Below are positions 1,216 through 11,176 of a stretch of DNA of 35,544 nucleotides, piece after piece; positions within the stretch are counted from its first letter, which is position 1; every line of letters begins with the position of its first letter. The stretch is taken from IMG/VR virus record IMGVR_UViG_3300022928_002142, positions 1 through 35,544 of that record, one strand, 5' to 3'. Below the pieces are notes generated by a model, which was not told the origin of the DNA, made no database searches, and saw only the letters and a list, made by a program, of their open reading frames with translations. The position numbers and the translations under genes are program-made. This stretch comes from a virus.

Positions 1216-1284
1216 ATGAGCCTGTTTACAGTACTGATGCTTTTAGTCCTAGGAATGGCTTTTATTTTCTACTTATACAAATGA
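1216..1284 (+). CDS. Tiny single-span membrane peptide (22 aa)
   Basis: MSLFTVLMLLVLGMAFIFYL followed by YK is almost entirely one hydrophobic helix with a Lys at the end, enough to span a membrane once. Its stop overlaps the helicase start as ATGA at 1281-1284. Upstream, an 8-codon reading frame (1193-1219) overlaps the kinase stop as ATGA and this peptide's start as ATGA, so kinase, leader, peptide and helicase form an unbroken chain of coupled starts. No Shine-Dalgarno sequence is visible, which fits translation by re-initiation. The overlaps and composition support a real gene, but it is very short and its function is unknown. Confidence 0.45.
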   Translation: MSLFTVLMLLVLGMAFIFYLYK

Positions 1285-2723
1285 CTTACGAATTATACGA
1301 TTGGCAGGAGCCTCATGCTCGCAAGCTCGCATTCGCACTGAATCGATTTGATGTTGCGATGGATGCTAGTGACATGGGTACAGGCAAGACCATAGTAGCA
1401 GTAAAAGTAGCGAGAAGTTCAGGGTTAATACCTGTAGTCATTTGTCCTAAAGCAGTTGTACCTAACTGGAGGAAGGTTATCGGTTCTGTTTACGGATACG
1501 ATGATAGTTTTGATGCTATGGTATTTAACTATGAGAGTTTAACTCGTAGTAAGAAAGACATTCCAATTATTGAGCGAACAGGCAGGAGTAAGTTTCGTTT
1601 TCGCTTAGATCGTCGTCGTGTAGTATTAATATTTGACGAGGTTCATAAATGTAAGGGTGACAAGAGCCTCAATGGTAAGTTATTATACTACGCCAAGGAG
1701 CAGAGGTTTAAGACTTTATTACTTTCAGCTACTGCAATCCATGACCCTCGCGACATGAAGTCTATAGGGTACGCACTTGGATTGCACGGCTACCGAGACT
1801 ACTGGAACTGGTGTCTACGCAATGGATGCCGTAAGGGTTTCTTCGGGGGCCTCGACTTTGACAGTCGTGGTTCCTCGAAGATTCTCAAAAGACTGCACGA
1901 GTCAATTTTTGGGAGTGGATTGCGTGGGAGTCGCTTAAGAATAAGTGATTTACCTGAAGGATCTTTCCCCGAGAACTTTGTAATGGTTGAGTCTTATCAA
2001 GTATCCGCCGTTGATTTTGATGACTGCTATTGGCAGATGGGTAAGGAGTTAGAAGAAGAGGGTTTGGTTGATATGACTGAGGACAACCCTTTGACTATTA
2101 TACTGCGTGCTCGTCAGCAGGCAGAGTTGATGAAGATTCCTGCTATCTGTTCTTTAATTGAGGAGTCATATGCTGAGGGTAATTCGTTAGCTGTGTTTTT
2201 AAACTTCCGCGAGAGTTTAGAGAAGTTAAAGGAGATGGTTTCAATAACTGTTCCCCATGACAAGATTGCAGAGATTAAGGGAGGTCAGTCCGATGACGAG
2301 CGTATTACAGCGATAGAAGATTTTCAGTCTAACAAGAAGCGTGTTATGCTGAGCATGATTTCAGCAGGTGGTGTAGGCATATCCCTGCATGACGAAACTG
2401 GAAATGCCCCGAGGGTTTCAATCATCAGCCCTGGTTTTAGTGCTATTGAACTACGGCAAGCTCTTGGTCGTATATATCGCTCGGGAGGCAAGACCCCTGC
2501 CCGTCAGTACATAGTGTTTGCTGATGGTACGATAGAGGACTCTGTACGCGATGCGGTACGCTCCAAACTTAATAAGTTAGATTTGCTAAACGATGGCGAT
2601 CTCACTGATCCGATTTTCGAATTATATGATAACAAAAATAATAAACACCGTGAGAGCCTTCGTGTGTCGTCTGCTGTGCAGAAAGCTAGAAGTCTCTCCT
2701 CCACCGTCACAGCGAGTTCCTAA
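1281..2723 (+). CDS. Superfamily 2 (SNF2-like) DNA helicase/translocase (480 aa)
   Basis: Helicase motifs appear in order: Walker A DMGTGKT (31-37), the Walker B/DExH box FDEVHK (118-123), motif III LLSATAI (147-153), motif IV around VFLNFRESL (305-313), motif V SAGGVGISLHD (361-371) and motif VI QALGRIYRSG (393-402). The layout with a lone Q-like DWQEPHA near residue 7 is that of SNF2/SSL2-like phage helicases. These use ATP to move along DNA, helping origin opening, fork restart or recombination. The gene is coupled by ATGA to the tiny peptide upstream and is followed 12 bases later by the next gene. Helicase identity is secure; whether it unwinds or only translocates is not determinable here. 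Confidence 0.85.
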   Translation: MTYELYDWQEPHARKLAFALNRFDVAMDASDMGTGKTIVAVKVARSSGLIPVVICPKAVVPNWRKVIGSVYGYDDSFDAMVFNYESLTRSKKDIPIIERTGRSKFRFRLDRRRVVLIFDEVHKCKGDKSLNGKLLYYAKEQRFKTLLLSATAIHDPRDMKSIGYALGLHGYRDYWNWCLRNGCRKGFFGGLDFDSRGSSKILKRLHESIFGSGLRGSRLRISDLPEGSFPENFVMVESYQVSAVDFDDCYWQMGKELEEEGLVDMTEDNPLTIILRARQQAELMKIPAICSLIEESYAEGNSLAVFLNFRESLEKLKEMVSITVPHDKIAEIKGGQSDDERITAIEDFQSNKKRVMLSMISAGGVGISLHDETGNAPRVSIISPGFSAIELRQALGRIYRSGGKTPARQYIVFADGTIEDSVRDAVRSKLNKLDLLNDGDLTDPIFELYDNKNNKHRESLRVSSAVQKARSLSSTVTASS

Positions 2724-2735
2724 ACGCCCAATACT

Positions 2736-3023
2736 ATGAAGTTAAACGAAGAGGAAGATAGCAAGCCAACAGATCCAATAGATCTATTACCTGATAATGT
2801 TATGGAGAGGCTTATCGCTCGATCTGCCGATCTCGCTACTTACATGAGTGATCGTCAAAAGCACTACGAGAATTTCTTGCAGGGTAATGTTAGTGATTCA
2901 TCTACTATGGCACTTACTGAACGACTTGCTTTCTATGAGCTTACGATAGATGCATTAATTCTAAGACAAGCTGAGGTAGAGCAGAGACTTGGCGGTACTA
3001 TAAACGATGGAGGTAGTAACTGA
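2736..3023 (+). CDS. Small acidic helical protein of unknown function (95 aa)
   Basis: I do not recognise this protein. It is rich in Glu and Asp, has no Cys, and from residue 20 on looks mostly helical (MERLIARSADLATYMSDRQK and ALTERLAFYELTIDALILRQ), so it may form a short coiled coil. No catalytic motif or membrane segment is seen. It sits between the helicase and the nuclease and its stop overlaps the next start (TGATG at 3021-3025), so it is made with them and is likely an accessory replication or recombination protein. Confidence 0.6.
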   Translation: MKLNEEEDSKPTDPIDLLPDNVMERLIARSADLATYMSDRQKHYENFLQGNVSDSSTMALTERLAFYELTIDALILRQAEVEQRLGGTINDGGSN

Positions 3024-3313
3024 TGTCATCTCCGATAGCACATCACGAGTTTGGTCCGAGTACTTTAAAGTACATTGAGGTCTGCCCAGGCTATAGGAGC
3101 AGTGGTGACACAAACCCTATGGCTGAGGAGGGCACTATGTTGCACGACCGAGTGGAGCGTGCTGACCTTTCTGACCTTACAGATGAGCAGAAAGGGTTAG
3201 TACAATTCTGCCTAGATTACGCGAAGCCTTTTATAGATGAGGCTGACTTTTTTAAACATGAACAAAGATACGAAATCAGATTATATGGAGATAAAGACAT
3301 ACAAGCTAGTTGA
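3023..3313 (+). CDS. PD-(D/E)XK exonuclease, N-terminal part (split gene, Cas4/DUF2800-like)
   Basis: The 96 aa hold the start of a Cas4/RecB-like nuclease of the phage DUF2800 type. There is a serine/threonine-rich opening with a lone Cys in LKYIEVCPGY (Cys21, the usual first iron-sulphur ligand) and then the motif I helix EEGTMLHDRVE with His41. The frame stops at 3311-3313, just where the family would continue into the G-T-x-D motif, which is found instead in a separate frame from 3475. GGAGG about 9 bases before the ATG makes the start convincing. Both halves keep sensible sequence, so they may assemble as a two-chain enzyme; a recent disruption or sequence error is the alternative. Confidence 0.65.
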   Translation: MSSPIAHHEFGPSTLKYIEVCPGYRSSGDTNPMAEEGTMLHDRVERADLSDLTDEQKGLVQFCLDYAKPFIDEADFFKHEQRYEIRLYGDKDIQAS

Positions 3314-3482
3314 CATGAACGGTGGTCATTCTAACGCCCTTACAGCAAAGCTTGACGAGGGTATTATAAAGGTAATAACGGACGATGGTAATAGCCTTCC
3401 GTTAGGGAGATATCTTCTCAAGGAAGACATGATGGAGTTTATAACGAATGTTGTAGATCCTATTCTGAACAGCGATGGATAA
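3285..3482 (+). CDS. Small ORF nested between the two nuclease parts (about 65 aa)
   Basis: This third-frame ORF fills the interval between the nuclease parts. From the ATG at 3285 it reads MEIKTYKLVDMNGGHSNALT and continues with a protein-like mix of charged and hydrophobic residues to a TAA at 3480-3482. Upstream ATGs at 3237 and 3258 are also in frame but lie deeper inside the N-terminal nuclease part, and none has a clear Shine-Dalgarno sequence. Its stop overlaps the downstream start by 8 bases. I recognise no family: it lacks the motifs of LAGLIDADG, GIY-YIG or HNH homing endonucleases. It may be a gained gene, or an insert domain of the nuclease that now lies in another frame. Confidence 0.45.
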   Translation: MEIKTYKLVDMNGGHSNALTAKLDEGIIKVITDDGNSLPLGRYLLKEDMMEFITNVVDPILNSDG

Positions 3483-4320
3483 GATGTTGAAGAGCATTTT
3501 CGGAACCTCAGATTTAACCTGTGTTAAGGGAGATCACATGGATGTTCTTGACTGGAAGTTCGGAAGAAATGCGGTAGATAAGGCAGAAGAAAACATCCAA
3601 GGTTTGGCTTATGCACTTGGTGCAATGGATGAGCATAAGGACTGTAAGACTGTTACCATTCACTTTGTTTTGCCTAGGCGTGGGGAAACTCACCAGCACA
3701 CCTTCACTCGTGATGAGCTAGAGGATGCGAGATTTAGGATTCGTTTAATTATAGAGAAAGCACTTCAGCCGACTCCTGCATTGAATCCAAATACTGACTC
3801 CTGCCGTTATTGCGGTCGCAGAGTTGATTGCCCTGCTCTTGCGGACAAGATGTTGCCTCTTGCAAAGAAAGCTCAGTCCTCCGTCGAGGACTTCGAGATT
3901 GCTATGTGGGAGTCCGCTGACCCTGCCTTGGTCACCAATGGTGAAACAATCGCAAAGATGAAGCGTGTCGGTTCAGTCATCGATAACTGGAAGAAGTCAG
4001 TTGACAAGAGGGCATTAGAACTAGCCCATGAAGAAGGTTTAGAAATACCTGGGTTCTCGGTTTATTTCCGAGCACCTTCTATAAAGCTAGACAGTGCAGT
4101 TGATGCATTTGAAGCTGTAAAGAATTCAGTATCACCCGAAAAGTTTCAAGAAGCTTGTTCGGTAAGCCTACCAATTTTAGCAAAGGTCTACGCAGATTCT
4201 AGGGGTATAACTCAGAAGAAAGCTAGATCCGAGCTAGAGAACCTGCTTGCGAAGGCAGGTCTGATTCCGTCGGACGAGGACAGGATAAAGACCCCATACC
4301 TTCGAGCAAGCAGTAACTAA
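3475..4320 (+). CDS. PD-(D/E)XK exonuclease, catalytic C-terminal part (split gene, Cas4/DUF2800-like)
   Basis: The 281 aa open directly with IFGTSDLTCV (motif II Asp13), then VLDWKFG (the D-x-K of motif III, Asp26 and Lys28) and ENIQGLAYALG (the Q-x3-Y motif, Gln42). A cysteine cluster CRYCGRRVDC follows (Cys110, 113, 119), matching the three C-terminal iron-sulphur ligands of Cas4/AddB nucleases; the fourth would be Cys21 of the upstream part. The last 150 residues are helical. Family members are exonucleases for recombination or end processing. Joining LYGD of the upstream part to KMLKSIFGTSD here restores a normal spacing, so the two ORFs look like one ancestral gene interrupted by about 188 bases. 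Confidence 0.7.
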   Translation: MDKMLKSIFGTSDLTCVKGDHMDVLDWKFGRNAVDKAEENIQGLAYALGAMDEHKDCKTVTIHFVLPRRGETHQHTFTRDELEDARFRIRLIIEKALQPTPALNPNTDSCRYCGRRVDCPALADKMLPLAKKAQSSVEDFEIAMWESADPALVTNGETIAKMKRVGSVIDNWKKSVDKRALELAHEEGLEIPGFSVYFRAPSIKLDSAVDAFEAVKNSVSPEKFQEACSVSLPILAKVYADSRGITQKKARSELENLLAKAGLIPSDEDRIKTPYLRASSN

Positions 4321-4366
4321 TCAGTAATAATCACAAAACATAACTAGTCGTAAGACACAAAATACA

Positions 4367-5131
4367 ATGAGCACAAGTACACAAGACAAAAAAGCCTCTA
4401 AGAAAGAGGCAAAAAACGAAATCGTAGATCCAATCGCTAACGGAGCCGAGCTAGGTGCTCCTAACCTACCTGTATTGGGTGAGGTAGTTGGGGACTTCGA
4501 CACAGGTGATATGTCTTTCACCGAGTTGAAGATTGCACAGGCTGTTGGCCCGTTATCGGATGACTACAACAAGGGTGATATCGTGATTGGAGACAGCACG
4601 GATCGCATAAAGATCGGTAGCATTGGAGGCGATCCACTAGAGATCACTGTAATGAAGCTGACAAAGTCGTTCGTGGAGGATGTTCCTTATAATGGGGATG
4701 AGATGCCACGGACAGCTAATACCAAGGAGGAGGTCTATGCAATGGAAGGAACCCTTGGTTGGTCTAAGGATGAGAACGGGAACAGAGTCAAACCTACATG
4801 GAAGCCTGTTGCGGAGGCTGTGGTCGCAATTAAGCAACCTGACGGGATTGATGATGTTCAGTGGTTTCCTTATCGGCACATGAACGAAGAGGAGGAGTTC
4901 GAGAATTATGCGTTGGCTACTTGGAAGATCCGAGGAACAGCGTATTATGCTGCGGTTGATCCGATCGTTAGTGCAGCTAAGACCTATATGCGAAGCGGTT
5001 TGATGTACGGCTCTTTTAAGTTGAGCACGGACAAAAGAACCTTTGGAGCAAACAATGTGGCAATACCTGTCATTAAAAGAGGTAGTCCAAACCAGCAGTC
5101 ATTCGCAGAGTGGCTCGCAGAGTTTGTTTAA
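4367..5131 (+). CDS. Conserved phage replication/recombination protein, possibly ssDNA-binding (254 aa)
   Basis: After a Lys/Ala-rich flexible start, the protein has FTELKIAQAVGPLSDDYNKG and then DIVIG. This opening resembles a family of roughly 250-aa phage proteins found beside nuclease and polymerase genes, with a pattern like 'lkiaQ..sp...kg....Gdi'. The middle looks beta-rich and the C-terminus ends in WLAEFV. Position between a Cas4-like nuclease and the DNA polymerase suggests a single-strand DNA-binding or recombination partner, but that role is inferred from neighbourhood and I see no diagnostic fold motif. The gene stands 46 bases from the nuclease and is followed by a strong terminator. 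Confidence 0.5.
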   Translation: MSTSTQDKKASKKEAKNEIVDPIANGAELGAPNLPVLGEVVGDFDTGDMSFTELKIAQAVGPLSDDYNKGDIVIGDSTDRIKIGSIGGDPLEITVMKLTKSFVEDVPYNGDEMPRTANTKEEVYAMEGTLGWSKDENGNRVKPTWKPVAEAVVAIKQPDGIDDVQWFPYRHMNEEEEFENYALATWKIRGTAYYAAVDPIVSAAKTYMRSGLMYGSFKLSTDKRTFGANNVAIPVIKRGSPNQQSFAEWLAEFV

Positions 5132-5210: not shown

Positions 5211-7124
5211 ATGTTATACACAGCAATCGATTACGAGACAGAGTATGGTAACAACCTGTCAGTAACAACATCGGGTAGTCGCAACTACGCTAACGAGCTT
5301 AGTAAGACTCAAATTTATATGCTATCGGGCTACAACCCTGTTATGGGTGCGATAGCTGGACCTCCTGAGGAGTTCCCGTGGTCAAAGGATATGGTATTAG
5401 TCGCTCACAATATGAGTTTTGATTGGGCTATGCTATACAGAACCGTAGAACTTGGAATGGCTCCCGAATGGGTGCTCGACCTACCAACTTTCTGTACCGC
5501 AGATATGTGTGTATATAACTACATATCTAGAAGTTTAAACTTAGCAGTTAAGGCAGTCTTCAATGAAGACCTTGATAAAGGTATGCGTAACTACATGAAG
5601 GGTAAAACATGGCAGGATGCAATAGATCAAGGCAAAGACAAAGATCTCTTGCAGTACGCAAAAGATGATAGTTATTGGTGCTTTAAATTATTTGAGGCCT
5701 TACAGCCACACTTCCCCGAGCATGAGGCTCGCATTAGCGAACACACAAGGCACATGGCGTGGCGTGGTGTTCCTTTTGATAAGGGTCTTGCAGAGCAGAA
5801 ATACTCTGACCTTAGTCACAAGCGTTTCGAGCTACTTTCTTACTTAAAGTGGACTGATCGTAGGGATGAGAAGTATCGTCAAAACTACAAACCTAGCTCC
5901 CGTAGAGGGTTGGCTTCAGAGTGCGAGCTTCACGGAATACCTGTTCCTAAAAGCATGGCTCAAAGCGATCCTAGTTTTCTGGAGTGGGTAGATGAATACG
6001 GAAACGAGCACAAGTTTGTTCGTGCATACTCTGACCACTACAACATCAATGTTCATGCTAATCGTGTTAAGTCTATGATTGGTAGGGCTGTTCAAGACGA
6101 AGAGGGTAATTGGAGGATGAGTTACGGCATGAAGTATTGCGGTGCTGATGCAACTTTAAGGTTTAGCGGTGATGCAGGTTTTAATGTTCAGAATATGCCA
6201 CGGGCAGAGAAGTGGGATACTAACTTACGGCATTTACTTTCTGCCCCCAAAGGTAAGACTTTTGTAATTGCTGACTATAATGCGATTGAGCCTCACCTAT
6301 TAGCCCTAGTGCTTGATGATGAAGACACTCTCGAACTTTTACGGCAGGGCTACAACCCTTACGAAGCGAGTGCTCGATTAACTATGGGTTACGAGGCAGA
6401 AGGTTCTTTGAAGAACGAAGACCCTAATCTATATCTCCTCGCAAAGATTCGTGTTTTAGCTCTTGGCTACGGCAGTGGATGGCACAAGTTTTATGAGCAG
6501 GTAAAAGACTATGGAAGGCTTGATGTTCTTAGTAAACCTATGGGCAAAGACACTCAGTTTAAGTTCGGAACTTTTATTAAGAAGTATGCAAAGGATCGTC
6601 TTGAGGAGTGGAAAACGCTAGACGATGACACTAAAATCCACTGGGTAAATGCGTGGGTTCAGGTGACTGACTTTAGGGGCAAAAACTCTTTACTTACAAA
6701 AAAATGGAGGGAGTTAGAGAAACACTTTGTACGGAGTGTCGGTAAAGATTTTTCTTACAAGCTTTTGAATGGTGAGTACATAAAATACTTCAGTGTTCGT
6801 CATGAGAAGAACCCTCAGGGATACTCTTGTTTTACTCGCAGAGGTGAGAAAAGAAGGTCTTGGTTTTATGGCGCTAAGATATTGGAAAATATAATTCAGC
6901 GAGAAGCTCGTTCAGTTTTTTCCAACGGGTTGCTCAACTTAATAGATAGTGATTACGATGTGGTAATGCATGTCCATGACGAAGTTGTTGTCTTGGTTGA
7001 CGAAGACAACGCAGAACAGCAAGCAGAGAAGATATCGGAGCTTCTTACCCTCCCTCCTAAGTGGATTGGTGACAGGCTTCCGCTTAAAGCAGAGTATCAA
7101 ATATCAAGGAGGTATCAGAAGTGA
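5211..7124 (+). CDS. Family A DNA polymerase with 3'-5' exonuclease (637 aa)
   Basis: The N-terminus carries a DEDDy proofreading exonuclease: D7-x-E9 in IDYET, AHNMSFDWAM with Asp71, and YAKDD (Tyr149, Asp153). The polymerase domain has motif A FVIADYNAIEPHLLA (Asp355, Glu360), motif B LLAKIRVLALGYGSG (Lys412, Tyr420), the helix WFYGAKILENIIQREARSV, and motif C HVHDEV (589-591). This is the phage replicative polymerase. By eye, the residue aligned with E. coli Phe762 is Leu416, a state reported to be frequent in temperate or slowly replicating phages. The usual motif B Arg754 position reads Tyr408, and DYSQIE is DYNAIE. No 5'-3' exonuclease domain is present. The ATG at 5211 is the first in frame and has no Shine-Dalgarno sequence. 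Confidence 0.9.
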   Translation: MLYTAIDYETEYGNNLSVTTSGSRNYANELSKTQIYMLSGYNPVMGAIAGPPEEFPWSKDMVLVAHNMSFDWAMLYRTVELGMAPEWVLDLPTFCTADMCVYNYISRSLNLAVKAVFNEDLDKGMRNYMKGKTWQDAIDQGKDKDLLQYAKDDSYWCFKLFEALQPHFPEHEARISEHTRHMAWRGVPFDKGLAEQKYSDLSHKRFELLSYLKWTDRRDEKYRQNYKPSSRRGLASECELHGIPVPKSMAQSDPSFLEWVDEYGNEHKFVRAYSDHYNINVHANRVKSMIGRAVQDEEGNWRMSYGMKYCGADATLRFSGDAGFNVQNMPRAEKWDTNLRHLLSAPKGKTFVIADYNAIEPHLLALVLDDEDTLELLRQGYNPYEASARLTMGYEAEGSLKNEDPNLYLLAKIRVLALGYGSGWHKFYEQVKDYGRLDVLSKPMGKDTQFKFGTFIKKYAKDRLEEWKTLDDDTKIHWVNAWVQVTDFRGKNSLLTKKWRELEKHFVRSVGKDFSYKLLNGEYIKYFSVRHEKNPQGYSCFTRRGEKRRSWFYGAKILENIIQREARSVFSNGLLNLIDSDYDVVMHVHDEVVVLVDEDNAEQQAEKISELLTLPPKWIGDRLPLKAEYQISRRYQK

Positions 7125-10027: not shown

Positions 10028-11176
10028 ATGACCCAAAACAGCACTAGAACTAAAAGAGGAAATCGTATATTCAAGAAGAACCCAAGCTCCAAAGGTTGGA
10101 CTTTCATGAAACAAGTAAACGGCAGAAGGTATTACTTCCCATTGGGGGTAATTTTATCGGACGCGAAGACATTGGCAGATGAGATAGATGCGTATGCATA
10201 TTTAAATCCTATTGCCGATGTCGTAAAAAAGTTCAGACCAAATGGTTTGAGCGTCGGCAACGACATATTCCAGAATGCTACCATCGGGGATGTTGCAAAA
10301 CGCTACAGGCTACTCGCACCATCTGAGTGTGGGGTTGAGCCCTCAACAATTAAGACCTATTTATTGGTCTTAAATAGGGTTATTCGTGAGGCGACTGGTA
10401 AAAACCCAGAGAGGTTTTATGTGAGCGACTTCACCCCTTCCCTAATATCTGAGTTCAAAAGGAGAAGGCTTGAGGGGGTTACCGATTTTGATAAAAGGAT
10501 CTCGATAAAGAGAACCATAAATAGCTACATGAAGCAGATCCAAGGCATTTTCTCAAAGCGAGCTCTCAAGCTGTATAAGGATTTCGATGTGAGTGCAGTT
10601 GTTGAGACTTTAAAGGATTTTGATCCTTACGATAAGATTGGAGTTAAGTACAAACTTCCATCGTATGATTTGATAGCTAGGACTCACAAGCTGTTGGAAT
10701 CTTATGATAGTTGTAAAGACCAGTATATAGCTCTTTCTTTAGCCCTTCATTTCGGTCTTCGTCGCAAGGAGATTCTAAATGCAAAGAGGAGCTGGTTTAC
10801 AAAAGTAAAGTCTCAGTTTAAAATTGCCGTTTTTACCGATGAAACATTTCGTGTAAAGGCAGGAGAAGACGGATACGCCTTCGGCTCATCCGTCATAGCA
10901 GAGAAGATTTTGACTATGTCCGACGGGTTTGAATATCTTATAACAGGAGGAGAGAGGCATGCCTTAGACCCCGTGCTAAAAGACTTAAGAAGGATTGGAT
11001 GGGACCGAATGAAACCATTGCATGAGTGCAGGAAGCTGTACGGATCCTATTGGGCTAGCAAGGAAGGTTTATATTTTGCTCAAAAGACATTGAGGCACGC
11101 TACTCCACTTACAACGAATGATTACTATGCTGATCTCATTGACCAAGAAGAGATCATGGAGCTATGGAGTGCCTAG
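10028..11176 (+). CDS. int: Tyrosine recombinase/integrase (382 aa)
   Basis: The C-terminal catalytic domain has the family residues: Arg245 in HFGLRRKEIL, the HECR box (His332, Arg335), LRHATPLTTNDYY with His357 and the nucleophile Tyr366 or Tyr367. A likely Lys is in the beta-hairpin near 278. Residues 80-200 form a helical core-binding (SAM-like) domain, and the basic N-terminus may bind arm sites. The enzyme would join the phage genome to the host at the tRNA-Leu sequence just upstream. There is no clear Shine-Dalgarno sequence before the ATG; a TATACT at 9999-10004 may be part of its promoter. Its stop shares the palindrome CTAG with the stop of the late operon on the opposite strand. 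Confidence 0.9.
   Translation: MTQNSTRTKRGNRIFKKNPSSKGWTFMKQVNGRRYYFPLGVILSDAKTLADEIDAYAYLNPIADVVKKFRPNGLSVGNDIFQNATIGDVAKRYRLLAPSECGVEPSTIKTYLLVLNRVIREATGKNPERFYVSDFTPSLISEFKRRRLEGVTDFDKRISIKRTINSYMKQIQGIFSKRALKLYKDFDVSAVVETLKDFDPYDKIGVKYKLPSYDLIARTHKLLESYDSCKDQYIALSLALHFGLRRKEILNAKRSWFTKVKSQFKIAVFTDETFRVKAGEDGYAFGSSVIAEKILTMSDGFEYLITGGERHALDPVLKDLRRIGWDRMKPLHECRKLYGSYWASKEGLYFAQKTLRHATPLTTNDYYADLIDQEEIMELWSA

Follow-up and report, generated by a model that had tools for sequence, protein, structure and literature searches.

The nuclease encoded in the replication-type gene cluster of this IMG/VR virus is probably a naturally two-chain enzyme of the DUF2800/AdnA-Cas4 type that carries an Fe-S cluster and is co-translated with a small protein encoded between its halves; assembly of the chains, the cluster and the activity are inferred. 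Within the window, that is, the entire 35,544-base stretch of the virus record analysed here, three overlapping genes in three different frames occupy positions 3023-4320 of the + strand. The first gene (3023..3313), preceded by the Shine-Dalgarno (SD) sequence GGAGG, encodes a 96-aa N-half that shares 52-60% identity with the corresponding half or part in its relatives and includes the first Fe-S-type Cys (C21, codon 3083-3085) and the H motif AEEGTMLH (His codon 3143-3145). The nested small gene (3285..3482, 65 aa), whose frame is open from position 3237 on, shares 29 nt with the first gene and 8 nt with the third. The latter (3475..4320, 281 aa) encodes the C-half, with the Asp of GTSD at 3511-3513, DWK at 3550-3558, Q...Y at 3598-3612 and three Cys codons at 3802, 3811 and 3829 (C110, C113 and C119); its start codon and the small-gene stop codon are both contained in the overlap ATGGATAA (3475..3482, + strand). 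The trio lies in a cluster comprising, in order and on the + strand where mapped, an SNF2-like helicase (1281..2723), which is a conserved neighbour of the nuclease, a 95-aa ORF taken from the ORF list (2736..3023), the three genes themselves, a probable SSB-like gene (4367..5131, 254 aa), a DNA polymerase I-type gene (5211..7124) and a primase/helicase-like gene. The SSB-like gene was named from synteny, because annotated SSB or OB-fold genes come next to intact nuclease homologues. A small gene just before the nuclease is likewise present in the related loci L011 and L108.

The C-half matched the DUF2800 family of PD-(D/E)XK nucleases (PF10926, E 1.8e-25, profile positions 113-294 of 368) and, in PHROGs, the exonuclease family phrog_69 (E 5.5e-30). 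No Pfam family was matched by the N-half alone; it shares 52% identity with the matching part of the intact relative L108 and contains the Cys and AEEGTxLH motifs of the family. The set expected of a DUF2800/Cas4-like nuclease (H motif, GxxD, DxK and QxxxY) is thus complete and divided over two chains, as are the four Cys of an Fe-S nuclease (one in the N-half, three in the C-half). A preliminary description of the DNA, made from the letters alone, had already taken the last ORF for a DUF2800-type nuclease, and would have been refuted had the two parts come from unrelated families; both belong to one.

Relatives were gathered by a polymerase scan followed by helicase, N-half and C-half alignments, which yielded more than 100 loci; single-protein scans of IMG/VR with the C-half (P0003) and the small ORF (P0002) gave no matches. 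After the loci had been sorted by N and C profiles and the gap between the halves dissected, the N/small/C arrangement described for the window was recovered in 37 further non-identical loci, nearly all in different IMG/VR records; one of the loci (L135) is a contig in a Rickettsiales metagenome-assembled genome from the Red Sea. All these split loci are metagenomic, and the phages concerned form a widespread group, with no cultured phage known for the split layout. The preliminary assignment of Cys and H motif to the first ORF and of the remaining motifs to the last was borne out across this collection, with the four Cys, GTxD, DxK and QxxxY kept in all 38 loci; the H motif reads EEGTxLH in 37 of them and is a variant in L133. 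Estimates of dN/dS in 17 pairs of relatives ranged from 0.02 to 0.18 for the N-half and from 0.01 to 0.09 for the C-half; those for the small gene were mostly 0.05-0.31, with one saturated pair and values of 0.79-1.66 in three near-identical pairs with dS of at most about 0.05. Both halves, as had been claimed, are intact, and in the tested pairs purifying selection acts on N and C and, though not as uniformly, on the small gene. Sequencing or assembly error, as well as decay of a pseudogene, could be suspected from one record, L012/L024 (IMGVR_UViG_3300046171_000284), which looks indel-ridden; the layout, however, is shared by independent assemblies, with intact motifs and dN/dS far below 1 in both halves, and this recurrence together with the selection leads us to exclude both. 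The other condition that would have refuted the preliminary description, frameshift errors in the data, therefore fails as well. In that record the frames of the nuclease tail, the SSB and the polymerase are broken, and the state of its fused junction is unsure.

Three loci of the same clade depart from the layout. L108 encodes a single chain of 369 aa with intact neighbouring ORFs, L024 is also fused, with the reservation about its assembly given above, and L011 is split by a 17-nt overlap without the small gene. One continuous reading frame, absent from the 38 loci, in which a third ORF lies between the two, is present in L108 and in cultured relatives. In a maximum-likelihood tree built on the C part, in which some long branches meet and the deep branching is uncertain, the state of the small gene requires three changes, and one gain plus two losses appears to be the simplest reading, other orders not being excluded. 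The N/small/C layout is ancestral to the clade, with L011/L024 and L108 as the lineages from which the small gene most likely disappeared. Unlike the deep branching, the recurrence of the split and of unsplit sister forms is not in doubt. Two other split clades, groups B and C, had separate origins in the C-part tree. Group B (L113-L118, L122, L127 and others) has intact sisters (L120, L125 and L128) with one SNF2-nuclease protein of 814-820 aa; in the split forms the helicase carries the N-half at its end (...QIIRRKTGV before the stop), the C-half restarts with MTTIxKDLREIRVKIDL...FGTCD, and the gap between the two holds unrelated ORFs, from one to several. In group C (L038, L040-L043 and L058), the break falls right behind the H motif; in L041-L043 and L058 the two genes share an ATGA/GTGA-type overlap. 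Both groups showed purifying selection on N and C in the tested pairs.

Several further observations were made on these loci. In L119-L126, L128 and L131 the SNF2 helicase and the nuclease are fused into single chains of about 815-830 aa. The ORFs between the helicase-fused N-half and the C-half in L113, L114, L115, L117, L127 and L132 include a zinc-finger-like one, coiled-coil-like ones and, in L132, an HTH-like one, and their content differs between close relatives, resembling a cargo site. A fourth DUF2800 split was seen in eight loci (L002, at 3758-4796, L050, L059, L061-L064 and L066), where the core ends with ...LARMDFDAVA and a stop and the C-terminal domain resumes in the +1 frame across the nearly invariant 30-nt sequence GCAAGGATGGATTTCGATGCAGTCGCCTGA, which could serve as a +1 frameshift signal or else as a restart made of a conserved SD and an ATG; in L067 the frame is uninterrupted at this site.

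The position of the break can be read from L108, in which the alignment runs ...MRVKVVYREDG-SSIFGTVD... and provides an 'empty site' (VKVVYREDG/SSIFGT) confirming the break point proposed initially. AlphaFold models cover this intact relative and, separately, the small protein, but no complex; the AdnA/Cas4-type fold is accordingly a prediction for L108 and not for the chains of the window. The L108 model (pLDDT 82 overall and above 90 around the break, pTM 0.56) had its best PDB matches in AdnA (7sjr, E 6e-7), RecE (3h4r, E 8e-6) and Cas4 (8d3l, E 5e-5). Since its first two strands span residues 77-87 (beta1) and 94-105 (beta2), the split is predicted to sit where the beta1-beta2 hairpin turns, in a fold resembling AdnA, Cas4 and RecE, which leaves Cys1 and the H motif on the N chain, and GTxD, DxK, QxxxY and Cys2-4 on the C chain. 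In the single-chain DUF2800 homologue of Caulobacter phage GB2A (L008), several tens of residues are inserted in this same turn, as if it tolerated insertions.

The presence of GTxD, DxK and QxxxY in the C-half raises the possibility that this half alone is a working nuclease and that the N-half has become an independent regulator, DNA-binding protein or helicase adaptor, as the N-half appended to the group B helicase might also suggest. We regard this as unlikely, because the N-half has kept Cys1 and the H motif through evolution and L108, from the same clade, is a single chain. In Sulfolobus Cas4 (Sso0001), moreover, four Cys bind the cluster and mutation of any one of them results in insoluble protein (PMC3466216), so that, by analogy, a C-half devoid of Cys1 would hardly make a complete enzyme.

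The junctions bear on how the halves are produced. The genes overlap in 37 of the 38 loci, and in the same number an ATG overlaps or adjoins the stop of N and another that of the small gene, the chance of an ATG per site being about 0.23 in an out-of-frame window of the same size. An SD-like site precedes the C start in 76% of loci, compared with 23% of random positions, and the small-gene start in 21%, which is no excess over that background. This pattern suggests that the small gene may be translated through coupling to N, and the C-half, in most relatives, from its own ribosome-binding site. The C start of the window has no SD, so coupling through ATGGATAA is its likely route of translation. 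The same junctions account for the 'GAT-AA' at both ends of the small gene, which had been taken for the mark of an insertion: the two ends look alike because each contains an overlapping start codon (ATGGAgATAA and ATGGATAA), and the end sequences differ in the relatives. The layout being ancestral to the clade, a target-site duplication at 'GATAA' was rejected, and a recent insertion of the nested gene in the window phage did not hold up either.

A different product, namely a single polypeptide made by programmed +1 frameshifting, ribosome bypassing or RNA splicing, with the small ORF as an inserted domain or intervening sequence, would be in keeping with the register (+1, +1) conserved in most loci and with the insertion-tolerant turn, as illustrated by phage GB2A. 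This explanation is improbable, however, given that the register differs in L022 and L083, L011 is split without an insert and the start-stop overlaps persist nonetheless, that most C starts are preceded by an SD, and that unrelated ORFs separate the halves in group B. No Rfam intron was matched and RNA structure was not in excess (mean z +0.29), which speaks against a self-splicing group I or II intron. A programmed frameshift gene is disfavoured because the register is not conserved throughout and start-stop overlaps are nearly universal. No Pfam intein match was found on the N, small or C ORF (P0001-P0003), and a split intein was ruled out also since the sequence left at the break has no room for one. 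Insertion of a homing endonuclease found no support, the small ORF having no convincing Pfam, PHROGs or PDB match and no homing endonuclease (HEG) domain. Taken together, the evidence disfavours or excludes an intron, an intein, a sequencing error and obligate frameshifting.

The small proteins form one homologous family, of which 37 members were aligned (typically 60-82 aa), with the core YeLtLL...V.G..V..RGd.vyI.T....IPIYaFKMn..L...Lk....W; the search of relatives for the 65-aa ORF, proposed at the outset, thus retrieved homologues at the same place. The window protein is divergent, scoring no better than E 0.15 when its own sequence is left out of the profile, and is linked to the L022 copy by BLASTP (E 1e-8, 31% identity); none of its shuffles attained its real score. 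Of 13 source records searched, eight carry the family, once each and only at the nuclease break. It was not found in the fused L108 and L024 records, nor was any match obtained among 50,697 phage records or in cultured phages. As far as these searches reach, the small ORF appears to represent a new, previously undescribed protein family found only at the nuclease break. 'Cake' matches of the small ORF to the PDB were below every single-stretch threshold and were taken as repeat artefacts. AlphaFold predicted a five-strand barrel-like fold with a C-terminal helix (pLDDT about 95 in the core). In the PDB, Foldseek returned only weak Hfq/Sm/Tudor-like barrels, at best E 0.11, and in the viral library it matched a phage receptor-blocking protein at E 0.037; none of this is strong enough for a function to be named.

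It remains quite possible, if not the reading we prefer, that the split is real and the small gene is a passenger, moron-like and perhaps host-directed, which occupies a permissive boundary and is unrelated to the nuclease. The small gene evolves faster than the neighbouring nuclease halves, L011 is split without it, and the break in group B holds other ORFs instead. Its absence from L011, L024 and L108 indicates that it is dispensable to the nuclease. Against this stands the finding that the same family sits at the same place in 38 loci, translationally interlocked with both halves, and nowhere else in the searched records; furthermore, two of the three clade loci lacking it are fused, suggesting that the split and the small gene go together. 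From this fixed, interlocked place and the absence from the fused records, we infer that the small protein is probably, not certainly, an accessory or assembly subunit.

In the two-chain nuclease that we favour, gene 1 would give an N chain ending after the first core beta strand, with the first cluster Cys and the H motif, and gene 3 a C chain running from the second strand on, with the metal-binding Asp, DxK, QxxxY and the last three Cys. The chains would be translated separately through overlapping-gene coupling, supplemented in most relatives by the ribosome-binding site of the C-half, and would most likely assemble so that the active site and a four-Cys Fe-S 'staple' are built from both, with a beta-barrel-like protein of 60-80 aa, encoded exactly at the break, translated between them. 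Separate translation and assembly are inferred from several lines together: both halves are under selection, L108 is an intact version within the clade, the register varies, start and stop codons overlap, SD sites are present, and ORFs lie between the halves in group B. That the cluster is common to both chains is inferred from the Cys positions, without any data on the cluster itself. Together with the neighbouring SNF2 helicase, SSB and polymerase, the enzyme would serve replication or recombination. A more elaborate version, which we advance only tentatively and with some doubt, is a three-gene nuclease with cluster and active site from two chains, a dedicated small beta-barrel subunit holding the break, and independent re-splits, one of which left the N-half on a helicase.

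Of the known systems, the DUF2800 (PF10926)/phrog_69 phage exonucleases share both models and all motifs with the window nuclease, and their cultured homologues adjoin SSB-like genes, annotated as SSB or OB-fold in some; the cultured examples fetched, however, are each encoded by one continuous gene as single chains of 373-507 aa, whereas the window has two chains with a third gene between them. The AdnA nuclease domain, Cas4, AddAB and RecE are the best matches to the predicted fold of the intact relative, and Cas4 and AddB have the same one N-terminal and three C-terminal Cys; in AdnA, Cas4, AddAB and RecE, unlike here, the H motif, active site and Cys ligands lie on one chain. Fractured genes with split inteins resemble the locus in that a gene of a phage genome is divided into two coding halves, but the halves of the window have no intein, and the break is occupied by an unrelated small gene with start-stop overlaps. 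The SNF2 helicase-nuclease fusions (L119-L128) contain the same nuclease family and have sisters split in the same region, whereas in the window helicase and nuclease are separate genes and the group B helicase retains the N-half. The portions of the open-access literature mentioning DUF2800 that were accessible contained no account of a split gene, and no matching account of split phage nucleases was found in the open-access literature searched; in a paper on Cas4 phylogenomics the word 'split' is absent and disrupted sequences were discarded (PMC5704561).

If true, an Fe-S cluster shared across two RecB/Cas4-type nuclease chains would be unusual, and recurrent splitting makes it testable whether the cluster serves as a staple that holds the halves together. 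The breaks would offer natural points for building split, controllable nucleases, and the new small protein family comes with a predicted partner. For annotation, the lesson is that nuclease genes can appear broken and yet not be so. In one clade the N-half is joined to the SNF2 helicase, which points to a physical helicase-nuclease link, as in AddAB or AdnAB. Finally, a tyrosine-recombinase-like integrase gene lies at 10028-11176 on the + strand of the window, and the virus may be temperate.
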